Assembly: GCA_913041535.1 (NCBI GenBank)
Contig: CAJWJK010000004.1
Coordinates: forward strand, 62,001 to 126,000
DNA from: an uncultured Alphaproteobacteria bacterium
GTDB taxonomy: Bacteria > Pseudomonadota > Alphaproteobacteria > VGEJ01
Direction of reading: 5' to 3'
Length of the DNA: 64,000 nucleotides
Shown here: positions 1,843 to 20,962 of the stretch, in pieces
Numbering within the stretch: position 1 is the stretch's first letter
Layout: each line of letters starts with the position of its first letter
Notes under the pieces: model-generated
What the model was told of the DNA's origin: nothing
Seen by the model: the letters and a program-made list of their open reading frames with translations, nothing else
The model's database searches: none
Translations under genes and position numbers: made by a program

Positions 1843-3447
1843 ATGGCCCAACGGAAAGGCAAAAGGATTACCAGACGCCGTGCCTTGAAGGCAGGCGCTC
1901 AAGGACTCGCTTTAACATCTGCCATTGGGATTGCACCCAAGTATCTGATAAGCCCAGCAAGAGCAACAGGTCTAGCATCGGGAATGACCGGTGGGCCAAC
2001 GGGATTCGATGGCGCAGAGCGCTTTCAATACAATGAGGGCATGTCAGAAGGTCGCGCAGTAGAAGCAGCTAAGAAACTTAAAGCGGACGGCAAGGCTGGA
2101 AAAATAACTTTCCTTCTTACACAGGGTGCCGTTGGCCAGTTTGAACAACCATTTCCGGATGGAGCTCCCACTGTACGGTCTGTTTGGGAAGCAGAAACTG
2201 GCATTCCGGTTGAGATAATCCCGGCCGGTGAAGTTGAAATCATCCCCAAAGTCATGCAGGACATCACCACAGGGTCCGGAACGTACGATATTTTCACAGG
2301 GCCATGGAATGCCGTTGGCGACAAAGTTGATGCGAACGGAATCGTCAATCTAGATGAGTTTGTCGCCAAACATAGGCCAGATTGGGGCGACTCGGAAAGA
2401 GGCACGCCAACTCCTGAGATGGAAAACCTTCTGTATAAGTATAATGGTTCCTATTACACCATATCCATCGATGGTGATTTTCAAACATGGGTCTATCGCA
2501 AGGACCTGTTCGAAGACTCAGACAATATCAAGCAGTTTGAGGACACCTATGGCTGGACGCTTGGACACCCTCGAACGTGGAAGGAAGTGGATCAAATTGC
2601 GGAATTTTTCCACGGCAAAGGTGTTCCCCAATGTAATCTTATTGGACCATTCTGGGGTCTAGCAATTTTCTACGCGCGATTTGCTGGGCAGGATAATCCC
2701 AACTTCTACTACTTCGATGAAGAAGGAAATCCAAATCTGGACACAGACCTCGGTATCAAGGCTCTTGAGGAGCACGTTAATCTCAAGAACTATTCTGCCC
2801 GCGATGCACTTTCGTGGTCTTGGGCAGAGGCATACGGTGCCATGGGCCAAGCTGAAGGCCTCATGATGTCAACGTACACCAATCTGCGGAAGTTTAATGA
2901 TCGCTACAATGCCGACGGAACGCCAGCAACTCCAGCGACTGGAAAGCTCGGATCGTTCCTGCCACCCGGCAATACCTTTGGCGACGACCTGATTCGCCGC
3001 AGTTGTCTGTACTATAACATCAACGCGGAGATCTCAGCCCAGAGTGAACATGCGGAAGCTGCTTACCTGTTCATGCAATGGGCAAGCTCTACCAGAACAT
3101 TTAGCTGGATGTCTGGCAATCCGGGTGGTTACTTTGATCCATTCCAGAAAGCAAACTTTGCAGAACCTCTGGTACAGCAAACTTACCATGCAGACCACTG
3201 TGCAATAATAGAAGAAACCATTGCCCGATCGGCTCCGACAATTAACTTTGCCGGACAGGGTGCGTTTGACACAAAACTTGATGAGCAAATTCAGGCCGCA
3301 CTTGTTGGTGATAAAACACCAGCAGAGGCAATGAAGAAAGCCGCAAAGGATTGGCGGAGAATCATCAAAAAGCGCGGTGAAACTCGCATGATTGATAACA
3401 TGAACAAGAGCCGCGCGAATTGGCCGGCTATCATCGATAAGGCATAG
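1843..3447 (+). CDS. ABC transporter extracellular solute-binding protein (carbohydrate type), Tat-like signal
   Basis: MAQRKGKRITRRRALKAGAQGLALTSAIG twin-arginine-like signal; type-1 solute-binding fold features; followed by two permeases and two ATPases. GGTAGGAG upstream of ATG 1843. Confidence 0.88.
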   Translation: MAQRKGKRITRRRALKAGAQGLALTSAIGIAPKYLISPARATGLASGMTGGPTGFDGAERFQYNEGMSEGRAVEAAKKLKADGKAGKITFLLTQGAVGQFEQPFPDGAPTVRSVWEAETGIPVEIIPAGEVEIIPKVMQDITTGSGTYDIFTGPWNAVGDKVDANGIVNLDEFVAKHRPDWGDSERGTPTPEMENLLYKYNGSYYTISIDGDFQTWVYRKDLFEDSDNIKQFEDTYGWTLGHPRTWKEVDQIAEFFHGKGVPQCNLIGPFWGLAIFYARFAGQDNPNFYYFDEEGNPNLDTDLGIKALEEHVNLKNYSARDALSWSWAEAYGAMGQAEGLMMSTYTNLRKFNDRYNADGTPATPATGKLGSFLPPGNTFGDDLIRRSCLYYNINAEISAQSEHAEAAYLFMQWASSTRTFSWMSGNPGGYFDPFQKANFAEPLVQQTYHADHCAIIEETIARSAPTINFAGQGAFDTKLDEQIQAALVGDKTPAEAMKKAAKDWRRIIKKRGETRMIDNMNKSRANWPAIIDKA

Positions 3448-15861: not shown

Positions 15862-16000
15862 ATTGTTGTTCCCATTGTTTAACAATAATTTCTGAATCTT
15901 AACGGCGTCGCTACCACATGTGTAGCGTCTCTATACCTTCTACACTTGAACTAGGAATCTTCCACCAGCGTCTATTACAATGCGTCAGCAATGTGGAACC

Positions 16001-19000
16001 ATGATGTACATAGATAAACGCCTTTGGCCCTTTACGGCCGGCTCACGTTTACGCATTGCGACAACGGTCCTTCTTGGCATCGCATCAACCATTTTTGGAG
16101 TTGGTCGGTTAGCACTATTAGGCTGGGTGCTAGGCAAAATTATCTTAGGTTCTCACTTTTCCGAACTATTATGGGCCTTTGTCGCTATTGCTTTAGTTAT
16201 GCTTGGACGTGGGCTTTTGGAATATGCCAGAGCAATGCACGCTCATCATACGTCTGCAATAATCCAATTAAGATTACAAAAAATAATTTATGATCACGTC
16301 GTTGCTTTAGGACCGGGGTATTTCGGACAACATCGAACCGGCGATACTATGTTGTCGATTATTGACGATGTGGAGCAGCTTGAAACGTATTTCGGACAAT
16401 ATCTCCCTCATCTCATTGTCGCGACACTAACACCAATTGGCATTTTTTCGTTTGTTGCCTTCCTTGATCTACCCATTGCGACGGTCATGATCTTTTTTGC
16501 GTTATTGACACTGATTGCACCAGCCGCCTTTCACCATTGGGAAAGCCGCAACAGCAAAGCTCGGCGCAAAGCGTACGGGTCTTTCGGAGCTGAATTTCTT
16601 GATTCTGTACAAGGTCTTGCAACTCTTAAGGCATTCGGCCAGAGCGGTGCCCGAATACAACTGCTAGCGGATAAAGCACAAACTCTGCTGAAGACGACGA
16701 TGTGGGTGCTTGCTACTAGTTCAATTTCACGCGGTATTACAGACTGCGGTATTGCTCTTGGTGCCGCCGTTTCGCTCACCATAGGTGCTTATCGGGTGCT
16801 CGAAGGCAGTATGGAACTATCTGTCCTACTGATAGTGCTATTAATGGGCATTGAGGTTTTTCGTCCCTTACGTGAGCTAAGAATTTTATTACACCAAGGA
16901 ATGCTTGGAGCCTCTGCAGCCGAAGGAATCATCAAATTGCTTAGTGAGAAACCAACGGTGGACGATAATGGTGAAATCAACAAACCAGAAATCAATCTCC
17001 GCCCAAGCATTGAATTCAAGGACGTACACTTCACATATCCGAGAACGCGCATGCCAATTCACGTCTCTCTTAATGTAAAGGTAGCTCCCGGAGCGCGGAT
17101 CGGCATCGTTGGCGCAAGCGGTAGTGGCAAATCAACCGTAGTAAGGCTTCTAGAACGTCTGTATGACCCGGATGCAGGCTCAATTCTAGTGGGAGGAAAG
17201 GATATACGTAGCCTCTCCCTATCGACCCTTCGAAAACAGATTGCATTGGTTAACCAAGATACGTACCTCTTTCATGGCACAGTCAGAGATAACCTTCTCC
17301 TTGGAAAACCGAACGCTAGCAAAAACGAAATAAAAGAGGCAGCAAGTCTAGCTAACGCTGATCAATTTATTGAACGATTGCCCGACGGTTATAACACGGT
17401 CGTTGGCGAACGTGGAATTAGGCTATCTGGTGGCCAACGGCAACGCATTGCCATTGCTCGCGCTCTTTTACGCGACGCACCGATTCTCGTATTGGATGAA
17501 GCACTTTCAGCTGTCGATGCAGAGAACGAGGCTGATATTCAAGAAGCCCTTGATCATCTTATGAGTGGTCGTACCACATTAATTATTGCACACCGCCTAT
17601 CAAGCATAATTAATGCAGACAGAATACTGGTTCTTGATAGCGGAATGGTAGCAGAGTCCGGAACCCACGCTGAGCTTATGGCACTTGGAAAGCTCTACTA
17701 TATATTAATGAGGGATCAAGTGAGCCAGCCAACAAGCTCCAACCTCACGCCACCAGTTCTTGCTAGTGGGGGCACTCTTCAGGACAAGTTCCTAGATTTC
17801 CACAAACCTGAATTAGATCACTCCTCTCCGACTGACACATCTACCGAAGAGATACTGGGATGGGGAAAAGCAATTAAACAACTGATGTCATATGTTGCGC
17901 CCTGGCGTATTAAATTGAGTCTTGCCTTTGGCTTTGGAATCGCGCGAGTAGTGGCATTCATTGGCGTCGGTATACTTAGTGCTTTAACCGTACTCGCAAT
18001 AAAAAACGGCCAACCCTTTGACCTTCTTGTCATTGCACTATTAATTCTAGCTCCAGCTTCCGGATTATTGCACTGGTTCGAATCCTGGGTTGCCCACGAT
18101 GTAGCCTTTCGCCTGCTTGCGGAAATGCGGGTTAACTTGTTCAAAAAACTTGATAAACTCGGCCCCGCATACACCCTCCGACGCCGAAGCGGTGATTTGG
18201 TGTCTATAGCAACACAGGACATCGAGACAGTTGAGTATTTTTTTGCTCATACAGTAGCTCCAGCGTTTGTCGCAGTTCTAGTTCCCACAGCGGTAATAGC
18301 GACTCTACTCGTATATGGTCCGCTAATGGCACTAGCTCTGTTACCATTCCTGATTCTAATTGGCATCAGCCCGTTTATATTGAGAAGTCGGATAGACCGA
18401 CTAGGGTCGCTCGCCCGAGAATCCTTGGGTGAACTTAATGCTTACTCTGTCGATACAATACAGGGACTTACCGAAATTCTAGCATTTCAAGTTAGCGCCC
18501 AACGGGGCCATCAATTCGTAGATCGAATCCGTCAATACCATCGGACACGCATTGCATTTCTATCTGATCTTGCAGCACAGAATTCTCTTCTCGAAATTGC
18601 TATGGGATTGGGCGGCCTTGCCGTGGTAGTTACTGGTAATAGCCTGGTTACCCAAGGCGCACTTGAGTCTGGGGTGTTGCCATTGCTCGTAATATTGGCA
18701 ATGTCAGCATTCTTACCCATTTCGGAAATATCTAATGTAGGACGCCAACTTGCGGATACATTAGGGGCAACGCGGCGGCTTTATACCGTCCATCGTCAGC
18801 CAATAGCGATTTCTGACGGCACCTATACACCCGCACACCATCACGCCAAGCAAGCTGTAAACATTGACATTGACAGTATAAGCTTTACATACCAAGGCAG
18901 CCGAGAGTCGGCACTAGTTGATGTAAGTTTCCCTATCTTCTCTGGCTCTACAGTGGCACTGGTAGGTTCATCGGGTGCTGGAAAAACAACTATTGCCCAC

Positions 19001-19648
19001 CTTCTTATGCGATTCTGGGACCCCGATTCGGGCCTAATCAAAATTAATGGTATTGACGTAAGAGAGTACCGACTTGACGACCTACACAATCTTGTTGCGT
19101 TAGTCGCCCAGGATACATACCTATTCAACGATACCCTTCGCAATAATATTCTTATTGCACGACCAAATGCTGAAGAACACGAAGTAATGAACGCTGTGGA
19201 AAAAGCTGCGCTTGAAGAGACTGTATCAAGCTTCCCGGACGGTCTAAGTACTCAAGTTGGAGAACGTGGAGCAATGTTATCGGGAGGACAAAGACAAAGA
19301 GTGTCCATAGCCAGGGCATTTCTCAAAGATGCTCCAATTCTTATTCTTGATGAAGCCACATCTCATCTGGATGCCGTTAATGAACGCCAGGTCCGCAACT
19401 CTCTGATATCGCTAATGCACCGCCGTACAACTCTTGTTATTGCCCATCGCTTATCCACTATCCGTGAGTCTGATTTCATCGTCGTTCTTGACCAAGGCCG
19501 TATGATAGAGGGCGGCACCCATACAGAACTTCTAGATAAAGGAGGCCTATACTCACGCCTTACAGCAAGCCAGATGTCGGAAGATAATTACCGTACAGAT
19601 TGGACGTCATACGGTACAGTGAGTTCACATTTTCGTACCAAGGTATAA
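16001..19648 (+). CDS. Fused ABC exporter with two TMD-NBD halves, CydDC-like
   Basis: About 1215 aa single ORF with two TM domains and two NBDs (GASGSGKS/LSGGQRQRIAIARALL and GSSGAGKT/LSGGQRQRVSIARAFL); order resembles CydD then CydC. Start could be 15980, 16001 or 16004. Confidence 0.82.
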   Translation: MMYIDKRLWPFTAGSRLRIATTVLLGIASTIFGVGRLALLGWVLGKIILGSHFSELLWAFVAIALVMLGRGLLEYARAMHAHHTSAIIQLRLQKIIYDHVVALGPGYFGQHRTGDTMLSIIDDVEQLETYFGQYLPHLIVATLTPIGIFSFVAFLDLPIATVMIFFALLTLIAPAAFHHWESRNSKARRKAYGSFGAEFLDSVQGLATLKAFGQSGARIQLLADKAQTLLKTTMWVLATSSISRGITDCGIALGAAVSLTIGAYRVLEGSMELSVLLIVLLMGIEVFRPLRELRILLHQGMLGASAAEGIIKLLSEKPTVDDNGEINKPEINLRPSIEFKDVHFTYPRTRMPIHVSLNVKVAPGARIGIVGASGSGKSTVVRLLERLYDPDAGSILVGGKDIRSLSLSTLRKQIALVNQDTYLFHGTVRDNLLLGKPNASKNEIKEAASLANADQFIERLPDGYNTVVGERGIRLSGGQRQRIAIARALLRDAPILVLDEALSAVDAENEADIQEALDHLMSGRTTLIIAHRLSSIINADRILVLDSGMVAESGTHAELMALGKLYYILMRDQVSQPTSSNLTPPVLASGGTLQDKFLDFHKPELDHSSPTDTSTEEILGWGKAIKQLMSYVAPWRIKLSLAFGFGIARVVAFIGVGILSALTVLAIKNGQPFDLLVIALLILAPASGLLHWFESWVAHDVAFRLLAEMRVNLFKKLDKLGPAYTLRRRSGDLVSIATQDIETVEYFFAHTVAPAFVAVLVPTAVIATLLVYGPLMALALLPFLILIGISPFILRSRIDRLGSLARESLGELNAYSVDTIQGLTEILAFQVSAQRGHQFVDRIRQYHRTRIAFLSDLAAQNSLLEIAMGLGGLAVVVTGNSLVTQGALESGVLPLLVILAMSAFLPISEISNVGRQLADTLGATRRLYTVHRQPIAISDGTYTPAHHHAKQAVNIDIDSISFTYQGSRESALVDVSFPIFSGSTVALVGSSGAGKTTIAHLLMRFWDPDSGLIKINGIDVREYRLDDLHNLVALVAQDTYLFNDTLRNNILIARPNAEEHEVMNAVEKAALEETVSSFPDGLSTQVGERGAMLSGGQRQRVSIARAFLKDAPILILDEATSHLDAVNERQVRNSLISLMHRRTTLVIAHRLSTIRESDFIVVLDQGRMIEGGTHTELLDKGGLYSRLTASQMSEDNYRTDWTSYGTVSSHFRTKV

Positions 19649-19762
19649 AGCATGCTAAAGTATTATGGAATCTAGATCAGCACAGAGCTCACATCACCCA
19701 CACTTAAGATTTCTATAACTGATGCTGAATGCACTACTGGCCCGACCCACAAGGAGATCATT

Positions 19763-20962
19763 ATTCATAACCCCAAAGATAGCCTAAGCGCCACATGGCA
19801 CTTCCCAACTCACATATTATTTGGACCAGGGAAAATCAAGGAACTTCCGAAGATCTGTAGCCTGATTAACATTTCAAAACCGCTCGTGGTCACAGACCGC
19901 GGTCTATCCAAAGCTTCATTTATCAAGGAAATTGAACACATACTAAAGGCTTTCAGTCTTGACTTTGGTATTTTCTCAGGTGTGCGGCCCAACCCGATTG
20001 GGGCTACGGTGGAGTCGGGCGTACAAGTATACCTCGAGGGAAACCATGATGGAGTAATAGCTATCGGTGGCGGCAGCTCCCTTGATACCGGAAAAGCTAT
20101 TGCGTTCATGTCAGGGCAAAGCGAATCCCTTTGGAACTACGCGATGGCGGATTTCAGCAACGCTGATGGTCTTGCACGTATCGTAAACGTCAATGGAATT
20201 GCTCCAGTAATTAGTGTGCCCACCACAGCTGGTACCGGCTCTGAGATCGGACGTGCCGCTGCTATAGTCGACGAATCACTATCGGTTAAGAAAGCGCTAT
20301 TCCATAAACATCTTATGCCTCGGGCTTGTATTGCTGACCCTGAGCTAACACTGGAGTTACCAGGTGATCTCACAGCGGCTACGGGAATGGATGCACTTTC
20401 GCATAATATAGAAGCCTTTTGCTGCCCTTTTCTTCATCCGATGTCTGACGGACTAGCAATAGAGGGCATGAGGCTAATTAAAGAGGCATTGCCTCGCGCC
20501 GTTTCTGATGGTACGGACCTTCAAGCAAGATCCGATATGCTGGCAGCGTCCATCCTAGGTGGAGGCGCTTTTCAAAAGGGGGTAGGAGCTATGCATGCGC
20601 TCAGTCATCCCTGTTCAGGAATTTTTGATTTACATCACGGGCTGGTTAACGCCGTGCTAATGCCCTATGTACTGAAGCACAACGCGACCTTACCATCTGT
20701 TGATCATAAACTCACTGCTGCAGCGCGCTATCTCGACCTTAAAAACCCATCTACCGCAGCAATGGTTCAATGGACAATCGATCTTCGTAAGAGTATTGGC
20801 ATCCCCAATACTCTATCTGACCTCGGTGTCGAAATAGAAGATATTCAACGTCTAGCACCGATGGCATCCGCAGACGTCTGTTCCGGCGAGAATCCTCTCC
20901 CTCTTACCACTGAAACGTGTGCTGAACTCTATCATGACGCGATCACGGGAAACCTAGAATAA
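19763..20962 (+). CDS. Iron-containing alcohol dehydrogenase, apparently with a non-canonical ATT start
   Basis: Fe-ADH motifs GGGSSLDTGKAIAF, PTTAGTGSE, GMDALSHNIEAF, GAMHALSHPCSGIFDLHHGLVNAVLMP. Homologous N-terminus (WHFPTHILFGPGKIKELP) extends upstream of the track's GTG 19886; AAGGAG at 19751-19756 precedes ATT 19763. Confidence 0.8.
   Translation: MHNPKDSLSATWHFPTHILFGPGKIKELPKICSLINISKPLVVTDRGLSKASFIKEIEHILKAFSLDFGIFSGVRPNPIGATVESGVQVYLEGNHDGVIAIGGGSSLDTGKAIAFMSGQSESLWNYAMADFSNADGLARIVNVNGIAPVISVPTTAGTGSEIGRAAAIVDESLSVKKALFHKHLMPRACIADPELTLELPGDLTAATGMDALSHNIEAFCCPFLHPMSDGLAIEGMRLIKEALPRAVSDGTDLQARSDMLAASILGGGAFQKGVGAMHALSHPCSGIFDLHHGLVNAVLMPYVLKHNATLPSVDHKLTAAARYLDLKNPSTAAMVQWTIDLRKSIGIPNTLSDLGVEIEDIQRLAPMASADVCSGENPLPLTTETCAELYHDAITGNLE

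Follow-up and report, generated by a model that had tools for sequence, protein, structure and literature searches.

An AUU codon as the probable start of an iron-dependent alcohol dehydrogenase gene in an uncultured alphaproteobacterium

Our data indicate that an iron-dependent alcohol dehydrogenase (Fe-ADH) in an uncultured Alphaproteobacteria bacterium is most probably translated from AUU at position 19763, the gene being intact and an ancestral ATG having turned into ATT at 19763-19765. The gene lies on the forward strand of the 64,000-nucleotide stretch of DNA analyzed here, referred to as the window. Non-canonical start codons are already known as a phenomenon, and Fe-ADH adds a further case.

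The Fe-ADH reading frame is open from 19676, directly after a TAG at 19673-19675, to the stop codon at 20960-20962. The first ATG, GTG, or TTG in this frame is GTG 19886, with none between 19676 and that codon; on re-reading, these limits agreed with those given by an earlier, sequence-only reading of the window. We found that the open frame, the Pfam matches, and the starts of orthologues together place the most likely translated extent at 19763..20962, that is, an ATT start and 399 codons followed by the stop. The protein matches both domains of the family, ADH_Fe_C (PF25137, 7.7e-45) and Fe-ADH (PF00465, 6.4e-44), while for the substrate subfamily the best NCBIfam model, 4-hydroxybutyrate dehydrogenase, scores 332.7 bits and falls below its cut-off of 500. 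The motifs GGGSSLDT (131), TAGTGSE (184), DALSH (239), AMHALSH (305), and HHG (320) are present, and the key residues of the dinucleotide site (GGGS), of GTGSE, and of the metal ligands (Asp and three His) are invariant in the orthologue alignment. Fe-ADH is the sole such gene in the genome and is without an internal stop. Judged by its predicted product, the gene encodes a full-length member of the iron-dependent (group III) alcohol dehydrogenases; it is intact apart from its start and probably working. Its upstream neighbor (15980..19648, forward strand) ends approximately 115 nt before ATT 19763 and encodes 1222 amino acids; this ORF carries two ABC-transporter modules fused in tandem in a single frame.

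We compared the N-terminus of Fe-ADH with those of its best 45 orthologues, drawn from same-class relatives and public genomes and numbered by the residues of the whole open frame of the window protein. These orthologues are approximately 42-53% identical to Fe-ADH (the nearest approximately 53-54%), and all 45 have an ATG within columns 26-37, 4-15 codons before a conserved Trp. This count includes one orthologue (L059) whose alignment ran past a stop and whose ATG is visible in the translation near column 31. The most common ATG column is 30, the exact position of ATT 19763, which supports the earlier proposal that Fe-ADH starts at an ATT; the N-termini of one orthologue (L032, MTNESPTLSANWSYPT) and of Fe-ADH (IHNPKDSLSATWHFPT) serve as an example. 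Mean identity to the 45 orthologues is 12-15% over residues 1-37, 44% over residues 38-70, and 49% over residues 71-428. Since identity rises from 12-15% to 44% at residue 38, protein-type evolution marks the sequence from ATT to GTG 19886 but not the sequence ahead of ATT, and the conserved N-terminal block that had been placed upstream of GTG 19886 is thus borne out. Of all genomes searched, this one alone has the ATT start of Fe-ADH. The order has two genomes, and plasmid records gave below 60% identity; since the nearest orthologue is only approximately 53-54% identical, the time and direction of the change from ATG to ATT are untraceable in close relatives.

The proposed start codon (19763..19765) lies 6 nt after a consensus Shine-Dalgarno sequence, AAGGAG, at 19751..19756 on the forward strand, both as the sequence-only reading had described them. 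An exact AAGGAG was found 3-11 nt before random positions of the genome in 0.19% of trials, and any Shine-Dalgarno-like 6-mer in 0.68%, compared to 6.5% of the genes that score strongly as coding. The site before Fe-ADH therefore exceeds both chance and what is typical of a gene in this genome. The in-frame codons following AAGGAG are ATC 19757, ATT 19760, ATT 19763, and CAT 19766. Of the three near-cognate codons among them, ATT 19763 is the best spaced. Its neighbors at 19757..19762, ATC 19757 and ATT 19760, stand 0 and 3 nt from AAGGAG and are less likely starts, although ATT 19760 keeps a small chance. Two mini-ORFs precede the gene on the same strand. One (19652..19675, MLKYYGI*), which the earlier reading had not mentioned, begins in the Fe-ADH frame at ATG 19652, meets TAG 19673 seven codons on, and would be usable only with read-through of that stop. 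The other, MHYWPDPQGDHYS* (19729..19770), is out of frame and ends with a TAA at 19768-19770, just past ATT 19763; it may be coupled to the Fe-ADH start, or its position may be due to chance. The leader RNA showed no structure beyond that of shuffled sequences (z 0.15), and a promoter and terminator scan gave no promoter-like site upstream of Fe-ADH and no excess over shuffles.

We asked whether other genes of the genome lack a conventional start. The survey covered approximately 1.1 of 2.09 Mb, about half of the genome, with 937 predicted genes, and by its design overlooks genes in which an internal ATG comes early. Four other genes have no ATG, GTG, or TTG at the conserved start position: infC, a coxL-like gene, parA, and mnmE. 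The infC gene starts with ATA after AAGGGAG, as it does in most alphaproteobacteria checked. The coxL-like gene, for a molybdenum hydroxylase large subunit (G000:C1:19061-21403, L066/L067), has no conventional start for 75 codons and begins IAKFGIGQSV at an ATA where a sister genome has MAKFGIGQSV with ATG; the ATG of most relatives falls in that column or the adjoining one. The parA gene (G000:C3:34369-35187, minus strand, L097) has no conventional start for 49 codons and probably uses an ATT after AAAGGG, and the exact codon, at or near that ATT, is less certain because relatives start parA at various places. The mnmE gene (G000:C3:37670-38995, minus strand, L097) most likely starts with CTG, as does its counterpart in the sister genome (L263), where no ATG, GTG, or TTG is present either. 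In both family members this CTG sits in CTGA, pointing to an overlap with the stop codon of an upstream frame. The Pfam and NCBIfam matches of parA, mnmE, and coxL all begin 5' of the first conventional codon. Codon-usage scoring for an upstream coding signal caught the coxL-like case but was insensitive, and the N-terminus of Fe-ADH scored -5.6.

Three further candidates were not counted. The apparent start loss of prfB (G000:C6:39972-41021, L175/L176) is due to its programmed +1 frameshift, at AGG GGG CAT CTT TGA C. A threonine-dehydratase-like gene (G000:C5:12016-13017, L171) also has no usable conventional start; it may begin at CTG, or a single-base difference within five consecutive G would account for the loss. 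In a relative, G031, the start loss of aroA (C1:552987-554273) reflects a frameshift at nine consecutive A near the start, itself either a sequencing error or transcriptional slippage. Excluding infC, 4 of 937 genes in this genome compared to 1 of 1096 in two relatives is not a significant enrichment (Fisher p 0.19), nor is the comparison with 6 of 2265 genes in Listeria (p 0.32). A raised use of non-canonical starts in this lineage is possible.

The sequence-only reading had offered a sequencing error or a recent loss of the start codon as alternatives, and both keep some weight, though they are weakened by the absence of other lesions and by the similar genes in the genome. If the assembly or a base call were wrong, the true sequence at 19763 would be ATG and the gene an ordinary one. 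A single base separates the two codons, and the assembly consists of 39 contigs with an estimated contamination of 4.25%. We nevertheless regard such an error as improbable, since none of 399 homologue-matched ORFs (approximately 131,000 aligned codons) was broken by a frameshift or stop; the lone flagged split in the approximately 1.1 Mb was one ORF matched in two pieces. The upper bound on substitution errors, slightly loose since the 399 ORFs include a few antisense matches, predicts no more than 0.19 lost starts among them, compared to 3 found besides infC (the probability of 3 or more is approximately 0.001), and the CTG of mnmE recurs in the independent sister assembly. Random base-call error therefore explains the set of start-less genes poorly, while it may still account for Fe-ADH by itself. 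Recent loss of the start, with a genuine ATT, little or no product, and a gene on its way to becoming a pseudogene, would fit the weakness of ATT as a start (PMC13068326) and the ATG of all 45 best orthologues. It is unlikely given that the 399 codons hold no second lesion, that every motif is kept, and that a strong Shine-Dalgarno sequence is retained at proper spacing.

Two other readings place the start elsewhere. GTG 19886 is the first conventional codon and the one that a gene caller limited to ATG, GTG, and TTG would choose, giving a protein of 358 amino acids. This codon falls within the conserved KPLVV (19874..19888, forward strand), and a start there would cost the protein its conserved FGPG block as well as half of KPLVVTD, the first strand of the dinucleotide fold; in alignments both correspond to residues 7-38 of relatives with solved structures. 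None of the best 45 orthologues starts at this position, so the finding that the sequence-only reading had named as refuting the ATT start did not appear, and the preceding bases (AACATTTCAAAACCGCTC) contain no Shine-Dalgarno-like site. We rejected GTG 19886 as the main start, and the shorter protein is very improbable. A longer or frameshifted product is just as hard to credit. It would arise from ATG 19652 by read-through of TAG 19673, or by a frameshift from the out-of-frame ATG 19722 or 19729; these codons do exist, and frameshifts mimicked start loss in two controls, prfB of this genome and the nine-A aroA of G031. The sequence from 19722 to 19790, however, is free of long homopolymers and known slippery sites, the ribosome-binding sites before all three ATGs are weak, and the products would exceed the orthologues in length across an unconserved stretch.

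In the favored reading, initiation at AUU 19763, AAGGAG would place the 30S subunit on the Fe-ADH mRNA, initiator tRNA-fMet would pair with the AUU despite a third-position mismatch, and the product would begin Met-His-Asn-Pro. Output would be expected to be low compared to an AUG start, and initiation would fall when IF3 is abundant and rise when it is scarce, as for infC. By analogy with known systems, the Fe-ADH start is probably weak and IF3-sensitive. In Escherichia coli, infC has an AUU start and is autoregulated by IF3, which discriminates against codons of this class (PMC5472188, PMC2268962). Fe-ADH shares the AUU and the Shine-Dalgarno site, but the product of infC is IF3 itself, with proven regulation, whereas Fe-ADH is a metabolic enzyme. 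The alphaproteobacterial infC, present in this genome, likewise has no ATG, GTG, or TTG at its start, yet its AUA is conserved across the class. In Streptomyces, the GTC start of sigR is repressed by IF3, so a non-canonical start can be regulatory in a gene other than infC (PMC5472188); unlike Fe-ADH, sigR has a different codon, encodes a sigma factor, and has experimental proof. Listeria monocytogenes has fixed non-canonical starts in 6 of 2265 conserved genes, and in its rsbW both ATA and ATT work weakly, in the order ATG > ATA > ATT (PMC13068326). Since ATT is translated less than ATG or ATA in rsbW, Fe-ADH with ATT could be nearly silent. The Listeria starts were measured experimentally, and the rsbW changes arose under laboratory selection.

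Gene callers limited to ATG, GTG, and TTG would cut 41 residues off Fe-ADH and would also put the coxL, parA, mnmE, and infC starts of this genome in the wrong place. Should several of these genes truly use IF3-sensitive codons, initiation fidelity is a possible layer of control beyond infC, and the gene list opens such control to testing. We consider it doubtful that the AUU, AUA, and CUG starts of the unrelated genes Fe-ADH, coxL-like, parA, mnmE, and infC recur as a set in this lineage and form a small IF3-responsive regulon governed jointly by IF3 level or initiation fidelity. Elsewhere in the window, positions 2949-3183 on the minus strand match the Ruegeria cis90 sRNA in Rfam (RF02648) with 56 bits against a threshold of 50, apparently outside its namesake genus.
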